64,000 nt of DNA from Ruminococcaceae bacterium YAD3003. Lineage in GTDB: Bacteria; Bacillota; Clostridia; Saccharofermentanales; Saccharofermentanaceae. The position numbers and the translations under genes are program-made. Below, piece by piece: positions 52,625 through 62,824 of the stretch (position 1 is its first letter; each line of letters opens with the position of its first letter). Where the stretch lies: positions 1 to 64,000 of the forward strand of contig FNPA01000008.1 of NCBI GenBank assembly GCA_900107185.1, read 5' to 3'. Under the pieces are notes generated by a model, which saw only the letters and a program-made list of their open reading frames with translations, ran no database searches and was not told the origin of the DNA.

Positions 52625-53014
52625 TTAAGCAAAAATAGGCTTATTATCAATTTTAAGTGTATCAAAATCGATATCTTCTATTTTGATAGGTATCGTCCAA
52701 TTATTTTCTTGCATGGTTTTAATAAATTCATCTGCAAGTTTAAGTCTGTAATTTTTTACATAATAAGCAAGATCTCCGGGCCATACCCATGTACCATCTG
52801 TTAAGGCAGTCGGTGTACCAGCAACACCTTTATCAGGATCAATAACATCATTCACCACACCTGGAGTTTCAGCTATAACTATTCCAGACGAAAGGTAAGT
52901 ACAGATTTTATCAATCTTATTTCTTTCTTCCTTGCCTATATAATCCTTTATCGAAGGGCCTGTTGAATTGCCATGTGGCATTTCTTTGAAGTAACCTTGA
53001 CTCTTAATATTCAT
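52625..53014 (-). CDS. Candidate immunity protein paired with the toxin-like gene
   Basis: 129 residues, soluble and acidic-neutral, with no signal peptide. The block DGTWVWPGDLAYYVKNYRLKLADEFIKTMQENNW (~73-105) resembles what I remember from immunity proteins encoded beside polymorphic toxins in Firmicutes, where it appears as WVW.GDL.YYV..Y...L...F. The ATG at 53014 follows the stop of the toxin-like gene by one base, with AAGGAAA upstream, so the two are coupled. Not recognised with certainty; what is seen is a small, late gene directly after a toxin-like domain. Confidence 0.72.
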   Translation of the reverse strand: MNIKSQGYFKEMPHGNSTGPSIKDYIGKEERNKIDKICTYLSSGIVIAETPGVVNDVIDPDKGVAGTPTALTDGTWVWPGDLAYYVKNYRLKLADEFIKTMQENNWTIPIKIEDIDFDTLKIDNKPIFA

Positions 53015-53015
53015 A

Positions 53016-53489
53016 TTATGAATTTCCTTTCTTTTTTGGTTTAAATACACGCCAAGTACCGGTATTAGTAAATTGATTGGGTCCGATTGTTATTCGTCCA
53101 TTTGGCCATACCCATAGCGTGTCCGTTGGAGCTTTAACAGGCACTCCCATCTTGTTTGCCAGGTTTTGCGCAAACCCGAAATCTTTCTTGCCGGCACTAC
53201 AAGATAGAAGTCGGATTGGGCCTGATTTATAACCAACATCCTTTTTTATCATTAAAGCAACGGAACGATGATCAGGATATACCCATTTGCCGTTATAATA
53301 GTATTCGGCAGTATCAGGATTGCCGTGAATAACTACATCTGTATACCCGTCTTCGGCTTTAACACGCAAAGCAAACTGTTTCAGATTGTCTCCTGCACGA
53401 GATCCTACAAAGGACGAAGAAGCTCCCGCTGCGGATAAGAGTTTGGAACCGGCAGTTTCGCCGAATCCACCATGATATCCTGCCCCCAT
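53016..53489 (-). CDS. Small protein resembling a polymorphic-toxin C-terminal domain, with His-Gly and Ser-Cys dyad
   Basis: 157 residues, no signal peptide. VVIHGNP (His55) after a predicted strand and PIRLLSCSAGK (Cys97) after another recall the catalytic His-Cys arrangement of clan CD (caspase-like, e.g. C80) peptidases. The following GFAQNLANKMGVPVKAPTDTLWVWPNGRITIG is reminiscent of C-terminal domains of LXG/YD-type toxins. It begins GAGYHGGFGETAGSK, a Gly-rich start as in toxin linkers. The ATG overlaps the DUF4417 stop (TAATG) and has an excellent AGGGGGTGAT site. Activity and fold are inference; it could be a phage protein of other use. Confidence 0.75.
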   Translation of the reverse strand: MGAGYHGGFGETAGSKLLSAAGASSSFVGSRAGDNLKQFALRVKAEDGYTDVVIHGNPDTAEYYYNGKWVYPDHRSVALMIKKDVGYKSGPIRLLSCSAGKKDFGFAQNLANKMGVPVKAPTDTLWVWPNGRITIGPNQFTNTGTWRVFKPKKKGNS

Positions 53490-54160
53490 TATATCACCCC
53501 CTTTAACTTCTTCATTGCCTTGTAGAATTCGCTATCGAAATGCACAATCTCGATAGCCTGTTCTTTATATTGCTCAAAGATATTATCGGGGACAAATCCG
53601 TACACAACGATAACTTTAGGCTGGATTCTTTTTATTACAACAGAAAGACCCTCCGCAAAAATCCTTCTGTCTTCTTTGTTCTTTAATGTCCCATGAGAAC
53701 CGACAGCTATAACTCCGCCTTTAGAAATGCCATCACAACATATCCTATATGTGCGTTTATCACCGTATCGTATATTAGGAATAACGGTAACTCCATTCCT
53801 TTGTAACCAGCATCCAATAGCTCGACTGCGGTAGATATTCCATAGTTGCATTACAAACGGCATGTCACGGTAAAGACTAAAATCAGGAAGAATTACTCCA
53901 TTGTATTTCTTAAGGATCTCGAGATACTTATCCGGCTTACTCCATAATTTCTCGAAAAGATAATCATCCTCATAAAAATGTACCCATTGATTGTAATCCT
54001 TAGAGGATATTGCTTTTGAGAAGGGAATAAGTCTGTTTGGAACACAATTTGTCGGCTTAATTACGGGGAATTCGAACAAACCCGCAAACTCGGCAAATCT
54101 AACTAAATACGAATTGAAAACATCGCGACAATTGCGTCGCATAGAATTAGCAAGTGACAT
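53489..54160 (-). CDS. DUF4417 protein
   Basis: 223 residues. The core GVILPDFSLYRDMPFVMQLWN, then RAIGCWLQRNGVTVIPNIRYGD and the block VIAVGSHGTLKNKEDRRIFAEGL match DUF4417, a family found in phages, plasmids and Firmicutes islands; function unknown. The ATG at 54160 follows AAGGAGGTGG. It heads a three-gene operon with the toxin-like and immunity-like genes, each overlapping or abutting the next. Confidence 0.88.
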   Translation of the reverse strand: MSLANSMRRNCRDVFNSYLVRFAEFAGLFEFPVIKPTNCVPNRLIPFSKAISSKDYNQWVHFYEDDYLFEKLWSKPDKYLEILKKYNGVILPDFSLYRDMPFVMQLWNIYRSRAIGCWLQRNGVTVIPNIRYGDKRTYRICCDGISKGGVIAVGSHGTLKNKEDRRIFAEGLSVVIKRIQPKVIVVYGFVPDNIFEQYKEQAIEIVHFDSEFYKAMKKLKGVI

Positions 54161-54183
54161 TGCGGCCACCTCCTTCTTAAGAT

Positions 54184-54212
54184 AATTATTTTGAGGACTT
54201 CTCAAAACTCAA
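54184..54212 (-). promoter_or_regulatory. Promoter of the DUF4417 operon with an inverted repeat
   Basis: Minus strand TTGAGT (54207-54212), 17-bp spacer, ATAATT (54184-54189). The spacer is filled by a perfect inverted repeat TTTTGAG-N5-CTCAAAA (54189-54207), a probable operator. Its N5 spacing equals that of the repressor operators at 55372 and 55424, but the half sites differ. Confidence 0.5.
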
Positions 54213-54213
54213 A

Positions 54214-54303
54214 GGATGTGGCACAATATACGTGCGAATGTAGGGTGTGCTACATCCTATGAGAACACTGACTGAAGCTCCTCAGCTGATATCAGTGTTT
54301 TTT
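54214..54303 (+). ncRNA. Candidate structured small RNA between the two island operons
   Basis: An inverted repeat GGATGTGGCACA / TGTGCTACATCC (54214-54225, 54246-54257; one G-U type mismatch) is followed by AACACTGA ... TCAGTGTT (54264-54271, 54292-54299) and a T-run TTTTTTATTTT, i.e. a plus-strand Rho-independent terminator. No plus-strand gene leads into it, so the pair of hairpins may be a short RNA; alternatively it is a two-sided element of the phage-like region. No clear promoter is seen. Confidence 0.4.
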
Positions 54304-54328
54304 ATTTTATTAATAATCCCCCCTTTTA

Positions 54329-55003
54329 TTAGCCATTGTAATACCATCTATCTCGCTCCAGTTGTCTTTCGACTTCGTCAGAGAACAAATAATCTATAGG
54401 CTTGGGTGCTATAGTATCTAAGAATTCTGCAAACCTCATAAGAATAATATCGTCATACTCCTTCTCTTCATAACGACGCCATTCCGGTTGAATTTTGGAG
54501 AGCGTTGTAAGACGTTTATCTGCAGCAAGAGACGATACTTTAAAATTGTTAATTAGAAAATCTGGTGTAATCGATTTACCGCGCTTTATGCACTCAATCA
54601 GGATTTGCTCTGGCATTAATAACTGTGCTGCAAAATAGTTAGTTTCAATTTCCTGTTTTTTGTACAAATCAGATTGCGGATCAAGATTCATCTTATGACC
54701 AAGAATATAATGACCTAACTCATGACAACAGGAAAACCTTATATGATTACCTGTCTTTGCCTTGTTATAAAAAATAATCGATTGGCCGTGGTATTCTTGA
54801 AGCACAGCAGACTCACTGCCCCAGGCTCGAATGTTCACATTATACCTACTCCTGGCTTTATCAAACGAGCATAAAGCAATATCTGTATTTGCCTTGATGA
54901 AGGGCTTAATAAGAAAAGGAAAAGCATCAAGCTCCTTTCCGATGGCAAGAAGCTCATTAGCAGCAATATACGCTTTCGAGAAATCAGGATTAGAAGACGT
55001 CAT
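54329..55003 (-). CDS. ImmA/IrrE-type zinc metallopeptidase
   Basis: 224 residues. The zinc-binding helix is CCHELGHYILGH with His94, Glu95 and His98, and the third ligand Glu is in QEIETNYFAAQLLMP (~120). ImmA of ICEBs1 cleaves the element's repressor, and the gene directly follows the repressor here, overlapping it by 14 bases, so a derepression switch is likely. The start at 55003 (MTSSNP) is my choice from several nearby ATGs because GAGG lies 9 bases upstream. The C-terminal ~90 residues are helical without motifs. Confidence 0.9.
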   Translation of the reverse strand: MTSSNPDFSKAYIAANELLAIGKELDAFPFLIKPFIKANTDIALCSFDKARSRYNVNIRAWGSESAVLQEYHGQSIIFYNKAKTGNHIRFSCCHELGHYILGHKMNLDPQSDLYKKQEIETNYFAAQLLMPEQILIECIKRGKSITPDFLINNFKVSSLAADKRLTTLSKIQPEWRRYEEKEYDDIILMRFAEFLDTIAPKPIDYLFSDEVERQLERDRWYYNG

Positions 55004-55349
55004 CGTCGTCATCCTCGTCATTAAAAATATCGGCAAAGACAGCTTTAAGCACATTTTCTGCCTTTTTTAACTCTTCCTCGTTAAGCTTGCCAAGATTGCG
55101 CTGTAAAGCATTGAGTTTAGCATCTGTAGGCGCTTCCAATGAATTGTTGTTGCCAAGAAGATAATCCGTCGGCACGTTATAATACTCAGCAATCTTTACT
55201 AAAACATCACTTCTTGGCACTGAACCATTATTCTCCCACATGTTTACTCTGCTTTTTGTAACATTAAGCACTTTAGCAAGTTCATCCATGCTTACACCTT
55301 TCTTCTGTCTAAGTTCTTTCATCCTTTTCATAAATATCTCGTTAGCCAT
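54990..55349 (-). CDS. Cro/CI-family repressor of the island
   Basis: 119 residues. XRE helix-turn-helix at ~8-62: KRMKELRQKKGVSMDELAKVLNVTKSRVNMWENNGSVPRSDVLVKIAEYYNVPTDYLLG, then a short helical region rich in Lys/Leu and an Asp-rich end (DEDDDDD). The ribosome binding site AGGAGG is strong. It is transcribed from a sigma-A promoter with two cognate-looking operators, so it should autoregulate; no divergent gene faces it, unlike normal phage switches. Confidence 0.93.
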   Translation of the reverse strand: MANEIFMKRMKELRQKKGVSMDELAKVLNVTKSRVNMWENNGSVPRSDVLVKIAEYYNVPTDYLLGNNNSLEAPTDAKLNALQRNLGKLNEEELKKAENVLKAVFADIFNDEDDDDDVF

Positions 55350-55605: not shown

Positions 55606-55636
55606 CAAGGGGCTTGGAAAATCCCCAAACCCCTTG
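55606..55636 (-). terminator. tRNA-Arg terminator
   Basis: CAAGGGG / CCCCTTG stem with a long loop and TTTTTTT on the minus strand. Its proximal arm is part of the att repeat, so each junction builds its own hairpin with a different distal arm. Confidence 0.8.
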
Positions 55637-55741: not shown

Positions 55742-55750
55742 ATTATATCA
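55742..55750 (-). promoter_or_regulatory. tRNA-Arg promoter (extended -10)
   Basis: Minus strand TGATATAAT (TG-N-TATAAT) with TTTATA 17 bp upstream of the -10. It overlaps the last codons of the gene ending at 55748. Confidence 0.6.
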
Positions 55751-56896
55751 TAATCCCGGAAGACTATAAAGGCAGGTCTCCGCGAGCATGACTACCAGAG
55801 AAATAAGGATAAGATAGAACGGAAGGCCGTCTATATATCTCGATTTTGATACGAATATCAGTCGTCTTCTGATAACAGATAACAGGCCCGTCATTACGAT
55901 ATCCGTTGCACATATAAATACAACTGCGATCAGCAAATGAATTATCTTCGGCATGCCCGGATGTACCAGGAATACCAACGCAATAAATGCAGCAGCAAAT
56001 GAGACTTCGCTGATAAAATATCTCAATCCGAAAATAGATCTTCTCAAATTATGTCTTGCAGCATATACCGTAATCGAACCGAATAAGATAGCAACAAATT
56101 CACTTACCGGAAGCGCAATGATTCTGAACAGATCTTCATCAATAAACACTTTCAGAACATAGAGACTTGCGGTGCCTGCAAAACTGATTATGGCAAACAT
56201 TCCTCTAGAGAATACAAATCGCTTAAGTTCAGAAATATCTGCAACCGGAATATCCCAGAATTCAGTAAGTTTCTTTGACGTCGCAATTCTCGGAATGCCA
56301 GTAAGTCTTGAGAAAGCCCAGCTCATTATTATAAGGAATACAACAGAAACAAGGAGCATGATAAACAGATATCTCTTCTCAAAAACATAAGATATCAACA
56401 AACCGCAAATAGAACATGCCGTAGCAATAATGAACGGCAGGAATACTTCTGAACCAAAAGCAGGCTTTGTGTAGTTGTCGTTATCATCTTCCTTAAATCT
56501 GGCAAGAGACATAATTCCGATAGCCATTGGTACAAATCCTACTGACGCATATGCACTGCAAAAACCTAATCTGTATGAGAACTCCCCTGCTGCTATAAAC
56601 AATGCCATAACATATGCAAATGAAATGACTGAAAGATTTCTCGGCATAAAGAATCTCAATGTAAGTGACCAGATGAGAATACATGCCAAAGAACATGCTA
56701 CAGGCCACCAGATAAGGTTTCCCGGAATCAGGAATTCAATGCACAAAGATATTATCGAGTATCCGAGGAACAACGCACCTCTTGTCGAGAGATAACGCGC
56801 AGGCCTAATATGGAAAACCGTTATTTTCTCATCGATCTTCCTTCTGGACTGCTCATTATCGAACGGTGAATTGTATTTCTCAGTAAACAGACCCAT
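55748..56896 (-). CDS. Ten-helix membrane protein at the end of the Rnf-like operon, function unknown
   Basis: 382 residues; about ten hydrophobic segments, with one longer cytoplasmic loop (~150-165, FKEDDNDNYTKPAFGSE) and an N-terminal soluble stretch of ~40. Neither RnfA nor RnfE motifs are visible, although RnfA/E proteins are about half this length with six helices, so a fused or replaced subunit would be needed. It follows the RnfG-like gene by 3 bp with AAGGTAT before the ATG, so it is certainly part of the operon. Candidate for a new membrane partner. Confidence 0.8.
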   Translation of the reverse strand: MGLFTEKYNSPFDNEQSRRKIDEKITVFHIRPARYLSTRGALFLGYSIISLCIEFLIPGNLIWWPVACSLACILIWSLTLRFFMPRNLSVISFAYVMALFIAAGEFSYRLGFCSAYASVGFVPMAIGIMSLARFKEDDNDNYTKPAFGSEVFLPFIIATACSICGLLISYVFEKRYLFIMLLVSVVFLIIMSWAFSRLTGIPRIATSKKLTEFWDIPVADISELKRFVFSRGMFAIISFAGTASLYVLKVFIDEDLFRIIALPVSEFVAILFGSITVYAARHNLRRSIFGLRYFISEVSFAAAFIALVFLVHPGMPKIIHLLIAVVFICATDIVMTGLLSVIRRRLIFVSKSRYIDGLPFYLILISLVVMLAETCLYSLPGL

Positions 56897-56899
56897 ACG

Positions 56900-58252
56900 T
56901 TATACCTTCCACTTCAGATATTCCTTGAGGAATTTGTAACAGGTATTACAAGCCTTGATTACAGTTCTTGTCTGTTCGTATGCTTCAGGCGCAGGCTCGA
57001 TAAATGAAGCCATTTCCGACATCGGGAGGTTATCCAAACTGTCCGTAAAGATCTGATTTGCTGAATCTCCGTCAGGTGTCAGACCATCTTCTCCTGAATC
57101 GAATTCTCCTGAAGTATTTCCCTGCGTTTCGTCAGGCTGACTTACAGGTGTAATATCAGGAACAACAGTTGTGCTGGCTGTTCCCTTAATGTTTGCTTCG
57201 ATCTGTCTTACACCCAAATAACCTACGGCAACGCCGTCATCGTTATAAACGGTATATATTTCAGGTGTCTTCTCAAAAGAGAATACTACGTGGCCATCCT
57301 CATTGATGTACTCCAATTCCTCTGCATTCTTCTGGTACAGTTCAAACAGGATGACATCAAGGCCATGCATATAAGCATCCTTATCGTATCCTGCCTGTGA
57401 GTTGCTGATGCATTCCTTAGCGAGTTCAACAAATGGTCTGATATCACATGTAACACCATCTACGATATCAGTAGTACCGTCCGACTTCATTGCCAGACGG
57501 TCCGGATCCTGGCATTCAAGAAGAGCATGGCAAAGGTTATAGGACTGTGTAGCCCAGTCCAGACCTGAAATAACATATGCGCCCTTCAATGAAGCTTCGC
57601 CTCTGTCCTGGTTTGTCTTATCCGTACTGAACGCATCCCAGTTAACTCTGGTAATTACTCCGTTCTCAACTTCCATCTCCACATAATCGATGTAACGGCT
57701 TCGGTCATCGAACATACGCTGTGCATAGTAAACACCGTCTTTTAATCCTTTAACAGTGTACTTATCTGAATCATCGTCCTCGAAAACTTCTTCCGTAACG
57801 AAAGCAATAGGAATCTGTTTGCCAATAATCTTGTCCCTGATCATCTGCATATCACTGGTGGTGATTTCCAGAGTATTCTCATTGTTTGAAGTTACCAGTG
57901 CAAGATCCTTAACTCTCGTACTCTCATAATCAAGAGAAACAAGTATATTCAGATCTCTGCCGTCCGTTGACTGAACAGTCATATCGAAAACATAACCCAT
58001 CGGGCTGCCATGTTCATCAAAACCTATATAAGCACCATTTATCTCAGGAAAATCCTTGAGAGCCTTGCTCTTGATCTTCTCATAGTAAGAAGAATCCAAA
58101 ACGCTCAAAAATCTTGCGTGATACTCATTCTGAATACGCTTATTGGCATTGTCGTTAGACAGGAAATATCCGCCAATTACAACTGCAATTCCGATAACCA
58201 AAAGAAGTATTGCTTCAGTAATAAACTGCTTGAGCTGTGCATGCGTCATCAT
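56900..58252 (-). CDS. Enlarged RnfG-like protein with altered flavinylation motif
   Basis: 450 residues, about twice the length of RnfG. One N-terminal membrane helix (~10-31), then two beta-rich stretches: 70-130 (INGAYIGFDEHGSPMGYVFD, LNILVSLDYESTRVKDL) and 165-285, of the FMN_bind type (DGVYYAQRMFDD, VENGVITRVNWDAF). Where other members have VDxxSGATxTS, this reads VDGVTCDI (264-271), so the threonine that carries FMN seems replaced by isoleucine. A ~65-residue Thr/Asp-rich linker and a C-terminal Cys-containing helix (IKACNTCYKFLKEYLK) follow. It overlaps rnfD by 4 bases. Alignment was done by eye. Confidence 0.8.
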   Translation of the reverse strand: MMTHAQLKQFITEAILLLVIGIAVVIGGYFLSNDNANKRIQNEYHARFLSVLDSSYYEKIKSKALKDFPEINGAYIGFDEHGSPMGYVFDMTVQSTDGRDLNILVSLDYESTRVKDLALVTSNNENTLEITTSDMQMIRDKIIGKQIPIAFVTEEVFEDDDSDKYTVKGLKDGVYYAQRMFDDRSRYIDYVEMEVENGVITRVNWDAFSTDKTNQDRGEASLKGAYVISGLDWATQSYNLCHALLECQDPDRLAMKSDGTTDIVDGVTCDIRPFVELAKECISNSQAGYDKDAYMHGLDVILFELYQKNAEELEYINEDGHVVFSFEKTPEIYTVYNDDGVAVGYLGVRQIEANIKGTASTTVVPDITPVSQPDETQGNTSGEFDSGEDGLTPDGDSANQIFTDSLDNLPMSEMASFIEPAPEAYEQTRTVIKACNTCYKFLKEYLKWKV

Positions 58253-59232
58253 AATGCATCCACCTCCCTCGAACGGATCTTACGTCTGGATAATGTTTTC
58301 GAGAAGAAATCCAAAACGAAAGAAAGGAAGTTAACTGCAAGCACCGGAGCCAAGAGCGATACCATCGGACTTAAAAACGGCTTAGTTACAAGAGTCAGAA
58401 TCGCACACACAACACCTGCGAAAACGCCTGATGCAAATCTCGAAGGCATGGTCGTAAGGTCTCCCAACAGGAATACTGCAACGAAAACCGCACCGGAAGA
58501 CATGATATAAACAACCAATCCGTCAAAACCAAATGACTTTGTCTGGAGAATAGAAACTACAGGATATAAAACAATGAGCGTTACAAGATAAGATATCGGA
58601 GAATACAGTCTCATAGTTCCCTTCAATGTAAGGAAAACACCACCAATGAGAATACAGACAAAGCATGTTGTTCCGATTAAACCGGGATAGTTACCGGTAA
58701 TGAGTTCCAGGAATGAGAGATGATCAAAACTCGAGAGCTTAACGGGTTCGCCCTGGAAGATAAGACTCATCAGCGTAAATCTCGAATTTGATTCTCCGTA
58801 AGAGAAACCCTGAACAGCAGAAGGCATTATGAGTTCAATGCACAGTCTGCCTGCACAGGCAGGATTGATTATGTTACTTCCCGCTCCTCCGAACATCTGC
58901 TTGGTAATAACCGAAGCAAACAAAACTGCTGTAAGAGCAGTCAGAAGCGTTGTGTCCGGAGGCAGCATAAGAGCCAGTAGCAAACCTTCAACAAGTGAAC
59001 TGAGATCAAAATAATCTCCGCTGGTTCTCCTGTGAGTAAATCTCATACAAAGATTATCTGAGAGCACAAACATAGCCATGCAGAACAAAATCAATATAGC
59101 TGCTCTGATGCCATAGTAGAAGATTCCGCAAACTACGCACGGCACAAGAGAAGCTAAGAACGTCATATAGATATATGGTGCGTTCTTATCCGTATGGATA
59201 AAAGGTGCAAGCTGTCTGTTATCACCACTCAT
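58249..59232 (-). CDS. RnfD-like membrane subunit
   Basis: 327 residues with about nine membrane helices. Recognisable RnfD/NqrB features: VEGLLLALMLPPDTTLL, MFGGAGSNIINPACAGRL, and GNYPGLIGTTCFVCILIGG (normal GNxPGSIGETS). At ~150-153 the flavin-binding SGATPL motif reads SRFTLM; a threonine (153) may survive but the context is changed. It would conduct electrons across the membrane in an Rnf complex. Overlaps rnfC and the rnfG-like gene by 4 bases each. Confidence 0.85.
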   Translation of the reverse strand: MSGDNRQLAPFIHTDKNAPYIYMTFLASLVPCVVCGIFYYGIRAAILILFCMAMFVLSDNLCMRFTHRRTSGDYFDLSSLVEGLLLALMLPPDTTLLTALTAVLFASVITKQMFGGAGSNIINPACAGRLCIELIMPSAVQGFSYGESNSRFTLMSLIFQGEPVKLSSFDHLSFLELITGNYPGLIGTTCFVCILIGGVFLTLKGTMRLYSPISYLVTLIVLYPVVSILQTKSFGFDGLVVYIMSSGAVFVAVFLLGDLTTMPSRFASGVFAGVVCAILTLVTKPFLSPMVSLLAPVLAVNFLSFVLDFFSKTLSRRKIRSREVDAL

Positions 59233-60749
59233 ACTTTCTTATCCTTCTCAAACGGCAATGTAAGTGAATCACCGGAACCCTCTTCGGAATTATCACCGCC
59301 ATCAGTGTAGCCTTCAAGGAGTGATGCCTCGCCGACATAGGCAGAATCAGCATCGTAATTCTGTTTAAGCTCTGAACTGCTGTTATCGAGAAGTGAGTTG
59401 ATCTCGATAATTCTTCCTTCTCCGGCAAATCTTGCAATAGAGTATGTAAGGTCTATGCCTGACGGACAAACATAGGAACATGAGCCGCATGCAATACATT
59501 CTCTGGCGCCTTCTTCTGCCGCCTTCTGACCCAATCCCTGGTTGAGCATTTCATAGATCGTATTAGGAGACAGATTCATTGGACAGCATTCAGAACAGAG
59601 ACCACAGTGAATACAAGGCGTTCTCGGAACTTCCAGCCTTCTGATAACTGAAATAACCGAAGTAGTCTTTACAACAGGTGTATTCTCAGGATCCTTTATT
59701 TCTATTCCCGTAAGGCAGTTGCCCCATACGATCCTGTCACTGCCGTTCTTTATATCCTGGGCATTCGATAAGAGTTCTGATACGGGTGTACCGATCGGAA
59801 CCAGCATATTATGTCCGCCGGAAGCATCACCTGTAACGGAAACGATCCTGCTCATCATCGGGATGTTATCAGCCAACGCTTCCCAGCAGGCGAGCATCGT
59901 AGAGCAATTAAACAAAACCGCTTTGCAAGATTTCTCGAGCGTCTCACCCAACGCAAGATTCTTACCGTAAAGAGCTCTGGCTACCAGTCTGTAATATCCC
60001 TGAGGGAAACGCTCTCTGAAGAGCTTGATCTCAAACTGGAGATCCTTAAAGTCATCTTTGATCTTTTCTATTGAATTGGTCAGCGCCTTTCGCTGTTCTT
60101 TACGGTTCTCGGAAATAAGGAAAACGCACTTCGATGCTCCAACAGCTCTTGCGCATGCGCACGAACCGAGAACAACATAATCAGGGTATTCAGTAATGGC
60201 TACCAGGTCTGATGTTGAATAAGGTTCACTCTGAAGACAGTTAACCAGGAAGTCCTGGATTACTTCTGTTCTGGCTCTATTAAGTTTTGCGGCTGTAGGG
60301 ATACCTTCACCACCCATTCCGCAAATACCGGCATTTCTAATGACACCGATCGCCTCACTGGCTGAGAGTTTAAATCCTGATCTCGGTTTAACGGAATCAA
60401 GTCTCGTTCTTTTCATGTCATTAACGATGGTAACAGCAGGTGTCTTGATACCGTTAGGAAGAACTATCTCCGATATTTCGGATACTCTTCCGGATATACC
60501 AGTATGTACCGGAACTGAGAATGTACCTTTTTCCGGAACACCTACACACTGACCGATCCTGACATAATCGCCTTCCTTAACAGCAGGGATCGCCGGTACA
60601 CCGTAATGCATCTTCATAGGAAGGATTATCTTTGTAGGATAGATCCTCTCAAACATAATCTCCTTGACAAAAGGGGAACGCTTCGAAAAATTCAAAACGT
60701 CCCCTGTAAATAGTCCTCTGTAAAATGAATATAGCCTGCGGTCTGCCAC
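59229..60749 (-). CDS. RnfC-like NADH-binding iron-sulfur subunit
   Basis: 506 residues, a little longer than usual. The barrel-sandwich start (PAIPAVKEGDYVRIGQCVGVPEKGTFSVPVHTGISGRVSEI), the NADH/FMN loop GICGMGGEGIPTAAKLNRA (~141-159), an SLBB-like region, and two 4Fe-4S motifs CIHCGLCSECCP (379-390) and CIACGSCSYVCP (418-429) are intact, so this subunit looks functional. The C-terminal ~75 residues are an acidic, Ser/Gly-rich tail. The start is GTG at 60749 with a weak ribosome binding site; only 44 bp separate it from the rpoD stop, so it may be cotranscribed with rpoD. Confidence 0.9.
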   Translation of the reverse strand: MADRRLYSFYRGLFTGDVLNFSKRSPFVKEIMFERIYPTKIILPMKMHYGVPAIPAVKEGDYVRIGQCVGVPEKGTFSVPVHTGISGRVSEISEIVLPNGIKTPAVTIVNDMKRTRLDSVKPRSGFKLSASEAIGVIRNAGICGMGGEGIPTAAKLNRARTEVIQDFLVNCLQSEPYSTSDLVAITEYPDYVVLGSCACARAVGASKCVFLISENRKEQRKALTNSIEKIKDDFKDLQFEIKLFRERFPQGYYRLVARALYGKNLALGETLEKSCKAVLFNCSTMLACWEALADNIPMMSRIVSVTGDASGGHNMLVPIGTPVSELLSNAQDIKNGSDRIVWGNCLTGIEIKDPENTPVVKTTSVISVIRRLEVPRTPCIHCGLCSECCPMNLSPNTIYEMLNQGLGQKAAEEGARECIACGSCSYVCPSGIDLTYSIARFAGEGRIIEINSLLDNSSSELKQNYDADSAYVGEASLLEGYTDGGDNSEEGSGDSLTLPFEKDKKV

Positions 60750-60793: not shown

Positions 60794-61846
60794 TCAGTCG
60801 GAATAACCTTCGAGTTTCTTAGACTTCGGCGATCTGTTGAGCTTTCTGATTGCTTTTGCTTCGATCTGTCTGATACGCTCACGTGTAACACCGAGCTTCT
60901 TACCTACCTGCTCCAATGTCATCGGCACGCCATCTTTAAGACCAAATCTCAATTCGATAACTCTTCTTTCTCTGTCTGTCAAACCGTTGAGAGCCTGGAT
61001 GAGGTCTTCCTTAAGAAGGATTCTTGCGACCTCTTCTTCAGGTGCAGCGAGCTCATCGTTGGAGATGAAGTCAACCAGGTGGCTGTCTTCTTCCTCACCT
61101 ACCGGCTTATCGATTGAAATAGGATCCTGTGAGATCTTCTGGATCTCTCTGATCTTTGCTGCATCCATGCCCATAGCTTCAGCGAGCTCCTCCGTTGTGG
61201 GTTCTCTGCCGAGATCCTGAACGAGCTGACGCTGTACTCTTGTAAGCTTGTTAATGGTTTCAACCATATGAACAGGGATTCTTATTGTTCTTGCCTGATC
61301 GGCGATAGCTCTGGTAATAGCCTGGCGGATCCACCATGTAGCATATGTTGAGAACTTAAATCCCTTTGTGTAGTCGAACTTATCTACTGCCTTGATAAGA
61401 CCGATATTACCTTCCTGAATGAGGTCGAGAAGTGAAAGACCACGATTCATGTACTTCTTTGCAATAGAAACAACGAGTCTTAAGTTTGAATTGATAAGGA
61501 GTTCTTTGGCTTCCTCATCACCCTTAGCCATTCGCTGGGCGATTTCCTTCTCCTGCTCTGCATCGAGAAGTTCGATCTTACCGATTTCCTTGAGATACAT
61601 CTTGACCGAGTCATCAACAACATTGACTTCCTCACCATCTGTATCAATTTCGCCGTCATCACCATCAAGATCAGGGTCGTTGATCATGACGCCGCCGTTC
61701 TCGAGTTCTGCTCTGAGATTGATTATCTCATCGGGTTCAATCTTATATGAGACTGTAAGTGATTCAAACTCAGTCTCAGTAAGCTGGTTATCGTTCTTTT
61801 CTGCGAATTTCTTTGCCTGCGCAAGTGCTTTCTCAAAATCTGTCAT
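60794..61846 (-). CDS. rpoD: Primary sigma factor RpoD (SigA)
   Basis: 350 residues, the short Firmicutes form. Region 1.1 is replaced by an acidic start; region 1.2 ([26 protein letters not shown]), region 2 ([70 protein letters not shown]), region 3 ([27 protein letters not shown]) and region 4 ([46 protein letters not shown]) are complete. GAGGTGAT lies 9 bases before the ATG at 61846. No dnaG is next to it, unlike the usual dnaG-rpoD order; the gene upstream is a zinc-ribbon membrane protein. Confidence 0.98.
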
Positions 61847-61915
61847 CTGATAGATCACCTCATAGATTATCGATTGTAAATTGCCGTTAACCAATTGCCG
61901 CGAAACGGCAAAGAA

Positions 61916-62656
61916 TTATTTTGTCTCTTCTGTTGTCTCAATGATCTCGAGAGGCTCCTGAACATCCTTTGTTAAGCCATCCTTGGAGATGAAATAGATT
62001 GTATCAGGAGTATAGATGTACATCTCAACGTCACCGGAAGCATCTCCGCGCTTATCGGAACGGAGAGCAACATAATTTGAATAAATCTGCTGTGCATCTC
62101 CTTCTGTCATATCACCGGAAACACCGACCTTAACATACTGACAAGAAAGTCCGTAGATATCGAACTGCTTGTACTCATAATTCGACTCTGAAGTTGAATC
62201 AAAGACCTTATCGAAGTCTGCAGTAATAGCTTCTGTCAATGACTTACGGCTAAGGAACATAGGAAGAGCAATCGCAACGATAATAGCTACGATAGCTACA
62301 GCACCCACTGCCATACCGATAACGAGCTTCTTAGGAGCCTTAACGTCATTCGGTGAGATCTCGAATTCATTTGCTTTAAGTTTTGCAGAATCAGACTGTG
62401 ATTTGGAGGTGATATCCCTCTTTACTGCCTTTTCAACAATATCAGGCATTACAGGATTGGAATAGTAATGTCTGGTACCTTCCTGCTTCTCGAACTTCTC
62501 GTTCTTGAACTCATAGTTACCCGGATTCGCAAGAATCTCAGTTGCCTCTTTGGAAGGGAAAACGCAATTGCAGAAAACGCACTCGCAAAGGTCATCTCTG
62601 TCATCGAACATAACCAGCGAACCGCAGTTCTTGCACATACCTTGTTTTGTCGCCAT
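61916..62656 (-). CDS. Zinc-ribbon membrane protein upstream of rpoD
   Basis: 246 residues: an N-terminal zinc ribbon (MCKNCGSLVMFDDRDDLCECVFCNCVF), a soluble linker, one membrane segment (~113-135, KLVIGMAVGAVAIVAIIVAIALPMFL), and a C-terminal beta-rich domain (~140-235, YGLSCQYVKVGVSG, VEMYIYTPDTIYFI). It shares only the ribbon-plus-membrane plan with the cluster at 36-48 kb. The ATG at 62656 follows a TTG codon and AGGA. A strong promoter precedes it and it probably leads into rpoD (69 bp gap). Confidence 0.85.
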   Translation of the reverse strand: MATKQGMCKNCGSLVMFDDRDDLCECVFCNCVFPSKEATEILANPGNYEFKNEKFEKQEGTRHYYSNPVMPDIVEKAVKRDITSKSQSDSAKLKANEFEISPNDVKAPKKLVIGMAVGAVAIVAIIVAIALPMFLSRKSLTEAITADFDKVFDSTSESNYEYKQFDIYGLSCQYVKVGVSGDMTEGDAQQIYSNYVALRSDKRGDASGDVEMYIYTPDTIYFISKDGLTKDVQEPLEIIETTEETK

Positions 62657-62795
62657 CAAAAAATCGTCCTTTATATTGGAGTATGCGCTTTAAGCTAACC
62701 TAAAGCCCTGACGGATAATAGGGATAACAGATTAAACGAGCCGTAAATACGGCATTCCCTGTGCGTAGGCATAGTTATACTTATAGCAATCGTAA

Positions 62796-62824
62796 ATTAT
62801 AATATGCTAATTCTAATACGTCAA
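62796..62824 (-). promoter_or_regulatory. Promoter of the zinc-ribbon gene / rpoD operon
   Basis: Minus strand TTGACG (62819-62824), 17-bp spacer, TATAAT (62796-62801). Divergent from the tadA promoter. Confidence 0.8.

Follow-up and report, generated by a model that had tools for sequence, protein, structure and literature searches.

The DNA analysed here, which we call the window, is a stretch of 64,000 nucleotides from Ruminococcaceae bacterium YAD3003 (assembly GCA_900107185.1, contig FNPA01000008.1, positions 1 to 64,000), and it is part of contig C16 of a genome that measures 2.67 Mb and is 99.9% complete. Its minus strand carries a run of closely spaced genes encoding, in order, a small membrane protein, RpoD, RnfC, RnfD, an RnfG-like protein and a polytopic membrane protein referred to as M; the genes, domains and motifs of this run for which positions are given below lie on this strand. 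The last four genes form a tight array, with two overlaps of 4 bases each and gaps of 3 and 44 bases. They encode an RnfC paralogue of 506 amino acids with a GTG start (59229..60749), an RnfD paralogue of 327 amino acids without the motif for covalent flavin mononucleotide (FMN) (58249..59232), an RnfG paralogue of 450 amino acids (56900..58252) that comprises a membrane anchor, a split RnfG fold, an inserted FMN_bind domain and a low-confidence linker, and M (55748..56896), an 11-helix membrane protein that we describe below as a diverged RnfE-RnfA fusion without cluster cysteines. The rpoD gene (60794..61894) lies directly upstream of rnfC and is the sole gene with sigma-70 region 1.2 found in this genome. 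A preliminary description of the window had proposed an operon of rnfC, RnfD-like, RnfG-like and membrane-protein genes after rpoD, and the coordinates, overlaps and family matches agree with it. The operon is very probably a paralogue of Rnf in which RnfE and RnfA have been fused.

Comparisons were made with loci of the same genus (24), of sister genera (20) and of named relatives (80), and with canonical operons of the order. The named relatives are labelled Saccharofermentans, Mageeibacillus, Ruminococcaceae, Oscillospiraceae or Clostridiales, and many come from rumen or gut. Residue counts refer to distinct sequences (94 RnfC, 94 RnfD and 96 RnfG-like proteins), as the alignments of 98 and 100 rows held repeats, some named loci and some loci from the numbered genomes being identical in sequence. 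Named RnfC and RnfD sequences outside the length limits were dropped, leaving 77/78 and 77/79, and duplicates and sequences outside set length limits were likewise removed from the canonical RnfC, RnfD and RnfG.

The RnfC paralogue matches TIGR01945 with an E-value of 1.4e-81, above that family's cut-off, and has the RnfC_N domain, the Nuo51-type FMN fold and the two 4Fe-4S motifs (59583..59615 and 59466..59498) that mark this subunit of Rnf complexes. All eight cluster cysteines are present in 94/94 distinct paralogues, so both motifs are intact, as first described. The glycine loop had been taken to be intact as well, and this we reject. The FMN/NAD (nicotinamide adenine dinucleotide) glycine loop reads GGEGIP (60297..60314) and its partner NAD loop NCLQSEP (60222..60242), that is NxxQSEP, in place of the GGA[GAS]FP and NxxECEP found in 13/13 canonical RnfC of the order. 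Among the 94 paralogues the alanine has become glutamate in 92 and the phenylalanine is replaced in 93, while QSEP stands for ECEP, with the first glutamate changed to glutamine, in 93; none of these changes occurs in the 13 canonical proteins. Judged by motif, the glutamate-to-glutamine site matches E95 of NuoF, which the excerpts of PMC6560083 available to us describe as strictly conserved in complex I and linked through water to the nicotinamide. With NAD-loop residues changed in nearly all copies, the path from NADH to the membrane that had been proposed for this operon is doubtful.

RnfC also carries a new C-terminal tail in the genus, with the motif LPF[ED] in 24/24 genus alignment rows and 68/70 named sequences, and in 0/20 sister and 0/13 canonical ones. 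A quick tree of 36 rows with midpoint root (10/20 sister, 13/24 genus and all 13 canonical sequences) separates all 13 canonical proteins from all 23 paralogues by one branch with a support of 100. This single long branch does not allow the duplication to be dated. At one named locus (L068:3584-6004) rnfC and rnfD form a single open frame of 806 amino acids, the RnfC tail running into the start of RnfD, which may be either a true fusion of C and D or a fault in the assembly.

The RnfD paralogue matches PF03116 (E = 1.3e-48, above cut-off) and no other family, a match to TIGR01946 remaining below its cut-off. Both riboflavin ligands of the Acetobacterium woodii protein have counterparts here: the motif GSNIINP (58861..58881) holds the asparagine that matches N123, and GDLTT (58450..58464) the aspartate that matches D249. 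Across the 94 distinct paralogues the asparagine is found in 84 and the aspartate in 90, and replacement of N123 or D249 in A. woodii RnfD abolishes activity, according to the excerpts of PMC11889175. The situation is different for the covalently bound FMN. Where canonical RnfD has the FMN-bearing threonine, the paralogue reads SNSRFTLM (58768..58791), a segment that is not conserved even within the genus. The pattern [STA][GSTAQK]A[TS]P[LMI] occurs in 22/24 canonical sequences and in none of the named (0/79), sister (0/20) and genus (0/24) ones. A threonine occupies the aligned FMN column in 6/94 paralogues, in a region that is poorly aligned, compared with 22/23 canonical proteins.

No Pfam FMN_bind match was obtained for the RnfG-like protein, and its match to the NCBIfam family PplA (E = 0.0066) is far below the family cut-off. 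When its profile was run against sequences, the best-supported relative was the FMN_bind protein 2kzx (E = 1.4e-19), and RnfG was reached only with E = 0.022. The structure, predicted from 42 named RnfG sequences and the protein's own, is good by part, with a predicted local distance difference test score (pLDDT) of 83, but not as a whole, with a predicted template-modelling score (pTM) of 0.48. All of RnfG (9eri_G) can be superposed on residues 1-447 (Z = 13.7, 182 residues aligned), with a root-mean-square deviation (r.m.s.d.) of 12.2, which means that the parts sit differently. Inserted into this fold is a domain of the PplA/A3DHT5 type (residues 169-295, 57368..57748), which overlays 3o6u_C over 114 residues (Z = 13.6, r.m.s.d. 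= 2.3) as well as 2kzx (Z = 12.4, r.m.s.d. = 3.6). In the model, the large RnfG thus has an FMN_bind domain set into the fold of RnfG.

The covalent-flavin motif of RnfG is changed too. DGVT (57449..57460) replaces SGAT, and across the 96 distinct RnfG-like sequences the motif is xGVT: valine takes the position of the alanine in all 96, the threonine is kept in 91 and the serine in 1; locus L089, with its G gene split in two frames, was left out of this count. In four sister-genus sequences the threonine is replaced by V, K, E or D. An SGAT-type pattern was found in 24/29 canonical RnfG and in 0/80 named, 0/20 sister and 0/24 genus sequences. An RnfG with SGAT that is flavinylated by ApbE, as expected of an Rnf complex, is therefore lacking here, and the genome itself has no ApbE match. 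The preliminary description had pointed to VDGVTCDI in RnfG and SRFTLM in RnfD as changed flavin motifs. Both are present, and the canonical pattern was found in none of the paralogues of either protein; in RnfG, however, it is the serine and alanine that have changed, and not the threonine.

The structure of M was predicted from 56 complete M sequences, filtered at 82% identity from the 80 named ones and its own, and the model has a pLDDT of 86 and a pTM of 0.86. It shows 11 long helices, rather than the approximately ten first proposed, in halves of six and five. The loop charges fit a topology with the N-terminus inside and the C-terminus outside, one outer loop being the exception, and both the helix count and the positive-inside pattern fit an RnfE of six helices joined to an RnfA that has lost helix 1 and retains five. 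The RnfE-derived half corresponds to 56285..56809 and the RnfA-derived half to 55751..56284, and this arrangement of E before A keeps the canonical gene order C-D-G-E-A.

M had no Pfam match at E-values up to 1, and a Foldseek search returned nothing below E = 0.001. A profile of the genus M proteins, run against 177,635 PDB sequences, gave A. woodii RnfA as its best match (9eri_A, E = 0.0058, residues 232-372), and VIA-align also placed an RnfA first (8ahx_A, Z = 7.4, r.m.s.d. = 4.0 over 149 residues), with M residues 215-378 on RnfA residues 31-190. Among the canonical operons of the order, a small set, two RnfA proteins came first in the M profile search (E = 8e-5 and 0.002). The profile of the sister-genus M proteins retrieved RnfE from A. 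woodii (9eri_E, E = 1.7e-5, residues 11-187 on 17-195) and from Clostridium tetanomorphum (7zc6_E, E = 2.2e-4), and these two chains, matched from residue 11 to 154 or 187, were its only PDB matches below E = 0.6. In hhalign, sister M and RnfE aligned at 92.6% with a score of 58.3, the best of 40 block-shuffled decoys reaching 45.6. Genus M and sister M aligned over their whole length at 94.3%, with a score of 63.7 against 54.1 for the best of 40 decoys, and the link between genus M and RnfE thus runs through the sister-genus homologues. Our conclusion is that M is RnfE fused to an RnfA that lacks its first helix; support for the RnfE half, by way of the sister genera, is good, and support for the RnfA half is moderate. 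Homology of sequence and fold places M in the RnfE-RnfA family (PF02508), yet below the level of Pfam detection. The earlier view of the fourth gene as a new membrane protein, serving as a replacement subunit, is accordingly rejected.

Two cysteines are invariant in RnfA, and two in RnfE (36/36 rows, 32 distinct sequences each); together they form an intramembrane metal site (PMC9588780), identified as a 2Fe-2S cluster (PMC12174285), as stated in excerpts of these papers. In M, the highest share of cysteine in any column is 0.54 among 57 rows and 0.79 among 28 sister rows (24 distinct), and in the hhalign alignment a serine and a leucine of M stand opposite the RnfE cysteines. The RnfA and RnfE pair with four cysteines for a 2Fe-2S cluster is therefore represented here only by a fused remnant.

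Canonical rnfA, rnfE or rnfB genes elsewhere in the genome were also considered and rejected, as no matches were found. At E = 0.001, the genome gave no match to PF02508 (RnfA/RnfE), ApbE, the RnfB-type FeS domain or Pfam FMN_bind, each of which gave matches in the control genomes. The ferredoxin-entry subunit RnfB, a defining part of Rnf, had no PF04060 match in this genome, the only one of its genus in which it was sought. The statement that RnfA, RnfB and RnfE are absent from the operon thus stands for RnfB, while A and E are present as the fused remnant M.

The operon is conserved across a single family of clostridia from the rumen, of the Saccharofermentans/Mageeibacillus kind. In a search of 40 genomes, the RnfG-like protein was found in 24/24 of the same genus and in 0/16 others of the order, and the order C-D-G-M after rpoD is seen in 24/24 loci of the genus, some of them cut by contig ends. 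The 80 named loci contain G in 80 cases, D in 79, C in 78 and rpoD in 78, and all 80 have an M-slot gene (77 complete); C, D or rpoD is missing only at L108 and L121, which begin inside the operon. By direct test the order is kept in 78/80 named loci, and the same four genes recur in other genomes, as the preliminary description had suggested looking for. The two failures (L122 and L126) are due only to a further rpoD-like gene upstream; a second rpoD copy is in place ahead of rnfC in both. At these loci the extra gene lies upstream of tadA, and two tandem rpoD genes precede rnfC in four others (L113, L115, L117 and L118). At E = 0.001 the genus M profile misses 8/80 M-slot genes, all in a more distant group (L120-L127). 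The 20 sister-genus loci have C, D and G in all 20 and an M-slot gene in 19, the remaining locus ending with its contig.

The operon was set against canonical Rnf in 148 genomes sampled from the order (53 of the genus, 22 from four sister genera and 73 others). The RnfG-like profile matched 52/53 genus, 22/22 sister and 4/73 other genomes, those four matches being weak and partial. PF02508 was found in 0/53, 20/22 and 66/73 genomes, respectively, and ApbE in 3/53, 21/22 and 62/73. The operon is thus a second set beside canonical RnfA/RnfE in the sister genera and stands alone in its own genus; the condition that the preliminary description set against its own view, namely rnfA, rnfB and rnfE located elsewhere with these genes as extra copies, holds, as regards RnfA and RnfE, for the sister genera but not for the genus. 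Among 391 genomes sampled from the class there were 11 full-length matches, all in the genus, and among 398 from the phylum there was 1, in the genome itself; the others were partial, and neither sample gave a full-length match outside the family. Ordinary FMN_bind proteins accompany ApbE in the three genus genomes that have it, and six others tested, including that of YAD3003, have neither, so ApbE does not follow the operon. Dependence of the operon on ApbE is rejected, as ApbE in the genus goes with other FMN_bind proteins. In the three genomes (regions G041:C1:472827-475225, G138:C1:84263-95647 and G152:C27:7632-16833), about 10 kb at most separates ApbE from an ordinary FMN_bind protein, so that a distinct flavinylated system may exist in them.

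In Rnf complexes, electrons follow a U-shaped route from ferredoxin through RnfB, the RnfA/RnfE cluster, the FMN of RnfG, the FMN of RnfD, riboflavin and the RnfC clusters to FMN and NAD, as set out in excerpts of PMC9588780 and PMC11889175. The present operon has lost RnfB, the intramembrane 2Fe-2S ligands, the FMN motif of RnfD, the SGAT of RnfG and, in RnfC, the usual residues of the NAD loops. It retains the two 4Fe-4S motifs of RnfC and, in the majority of species, the residues with which RnfD binds riboflavin. The residues concerned bind cofactors in the Rnf complexes of A. woodii and C. tetanomorphum (PMC11889175 and PMC9588780, in the portions cited). The route is cut at RnfB, RnfA/RnfE, RnfG and RnfD and probably altered at NAD, so the operon can hardly encode a standard ferredoxin-to-NAD pump. 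The best explanation of the whole, which we consider evenly balanced between right and wrong, would be a conserved paralogue of the Rnf module that acts as a redox sensor or gate, and not as a pump. Electrons would move over the short stretch that remains, from a cytosolic donor to the two RnfC clusters and the riboflavin in RnfD, and the membrane part and the extracytoplasmic RnfG-like protein would report the redox state by changing their conformation. This mechanism of sensing or gating is put forward tentatively and may prove wrong somewhat sooner than right. A fuller scenario is still more doubtful: loss of the transmembrane carriers and fusion of E and A would have produced a pseudo-Rnf, a redox sensor or gated channel based on clusters and riboflavin, that outlived canonical Rnf in the whole genus. 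The sole rpoD found lies just ahead of the operon, a position that points to a constitutive, housekeeping function.

Several observations weigh against this interpretation. A function as sensor or gate is a guess from what remains in the sequences. The riboflavin asparagine is replaced in 10/94 and the aspartate in 4/94 RnfD paralogues, and even the half-chain may therefore be dispensable in some species. The G gene is split in two frames at one named locus (L089) and in one genome (G152), and a further genus genome (G135) has no G match; these may be assembly faults or real losses. The threonine of GVT, kept in 91/96 sequences, may mean that RnfG receives a flavin by some other route. As to M, none of six sister-genus sequences reaches the cut-off of PF02508 or of any other Pfam family, and the scores for RnfA are weak, namely E = 0.0058 for the genus profile and Z = 7.4 in VIA-align, where unrelated folds tie with it. 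The hhalign score of sister M with RnfA is 28.2, barely separable from a best decoy of 27.5, and that of the genus M half with RnfA, 28.5, is not separable from block-shuffled decoys at 30.0. Genus M alone gives no signal with RnfE (0.1 to 0.2%), and addition of the genus rows to the sister M rows drops the RnfE signal to 0.1%.

Part of this evidence would also fit M as an unrelated membrane protein that has replaced RnfA and RnfE: it has no Pfam match over cut-off and no Foldseek match under E = 0.001, its genus members alone do not match RnfE, and identity is low even within the family. We nevertheless hold this to be quite improbable, as the two RnfE chains are the only PDB matches of sister M below E = 0.6, genus and sister M align end to end, RnfA comes first for the genus profile and in VIA-align in the same register, and the position in the operon fits. 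The preliminary description had also entertained a decaying complex put to another use. Another use is probable, but the complex is hardly decaying, with its order kept in 24/24 genus and 78/80 named loci. That it is a plain leftover of canonical Rnf would account for the many lost catalytic residues, the two split G frames and the genome without a G match. It is largely refuted, and close to negligible as a reading, in view of the coexistence with canonical RnfA/RnfE in sister genera, the separate RnfC clade (support 100), the conserved order and genus-shared features such as the RnfC tail.

Two readings in which the complex is functional compete with a redox sensor or gate. In one, which we regard as unlikely, the role of the complex is purely structural or one in signalling, or else RnfD and the E-A fold make up an ion channel or a transporter, and the Fe-S clusters do no more than stabilise RnfC. 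In its favour, every membrane redox group except riboflavin is lost, NqrA is a precedent for the disappearance of redox groups from a relative of RnfC (PMC11889175, in excerpt), and the E-A dimer has been likened to alternating-access transporters in the cited part of PMC12174285; the eight cluster cysteines in 94/94 sequences and the riboflavin ligands in most are, however, more than a scaffold would seem to need. Less probable again is an outward electron path, leading from the RnfC clusters through the RnfD riboflavin to a non-covalent flavin in the inserted FMN_bind domain and on to an extracellular acceptor. The 2kzx/3o6u fold is retained in that domain, as are residues that are strongly conserved, the motif threonine survives in 91/96 distinct sequences, and one-way partial NQR/RNF-like systems exist, as reported in excerpts of PMC8238504. 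Such a path would need the FMN motif of RnfD, the link from riboflavin to the outer face, which is not there; ApbE was not found in 50/53 genus genomes, four relatives have V, K, E or D in place of the threonine, and the NAD loops are altered.

Compared with the Rnf complex RnfABCDGE of A. woodii (9eri) and C. tetanomorphum (7zc6), the operon shares homologous C, D, G, E and A parts in the order C-D-G-E-A. It differs in that no RnfB was found, that E and A are fused without A helix 1 and cluster cysteines, that RnfD lacks the covalent-FMN motif, that RnfG is enlarged and without SGAT, and that the NAD loops of RnfC are changed. As it is Rnf by descent but lacks several defining features, we do not file it as an Rnf complex. 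The NQR/RNF-like partial systems, described in the cited portion of PMC8238504 mainly from Actinobacteria and the candidate phyla radiation (CPR), are likewise partial, Rnf-derived and equipped with an RnfD/NqrB homologue. They have an RnfD-NqrF fusion (PF00175) within a flavinylation cluster, whereas the RnfD described here has PF03116 only, without the PF00175 fusion, and its genome has no ApbE match. The membrane core of Na+-NQR is related as well, and its NqrA shows that an RnfC relative can lose redox groups (PMC11889175, as excerpted); here, in contrast, the cluster motifs survive in the RnfC relative, and it is the other subunits that have lost theirs. There is no NqrF among the four genes of the operon, and no genome search for NqrF was made. 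The FMN_bind proteins A3DHT5 (2kzx) and CPE2226 (3o6u), with 34% and 27% identity in the structure alignments, and PplA match residues 169-295 of the RnfG-like protein, which differs from them in that its SGAT has become xGVT and the domain sits inside an RnfG fold.

In the literature collection searched for partial Rnf without RnfB and for Saccharofermentans with an Rnf complex, no description of such a system was found. Rnf and NQR complexes work by passing electrons via bound cofactors across the membrane, as the sources excerpted above describe. If our interpretation is true, the Rnf scaffold has a second use and is kept after the loss of most cofactors in a genus in which no working version was found. 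The operon would then be a natural experiment on separability, in which the clusters of RnfC and the riboflavin site of RnfD mostly persist while the intramembrane cluster and the sites for covalent flavin have gone. It is also a warning for annotation, since a match to rnfC or rnfD in rumen genomes of this kind need not by itself mean energy conservation by Rnf.

The first gene of the conserved run (61916..62659) encodes the small membrane protein, which has zinc-ribbon-like cysteine pairs and no family match above cut-off, and it precedes rpoD in 71/80 named loci, as far as the contigs reach. Upstream of the run, on the minus strand, lies a promoter-like site with 11/12 matches (62796..62824), of a class that is no commoner in the window than in shuffles. 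An intrinsic-terminator-like site of 14 pairs followed by a T run is found 3' of M on the same strand (55606..55636), and terminator-like sites as a class are commoner than in shuffles (17 versus a mean of 5.1). Another terminator-like hairpin of 14 pairs (60674-60704) lies within the start of rnfC, just past the rpoD-rnfC gap, and might tune read-through from rpoD. Downstream of the operon (52625-55349), a DUF4417 gene, an IrrE-type M78 peptidase and a Cro/C1-type regulator together resemble the remnant of a mobile element.

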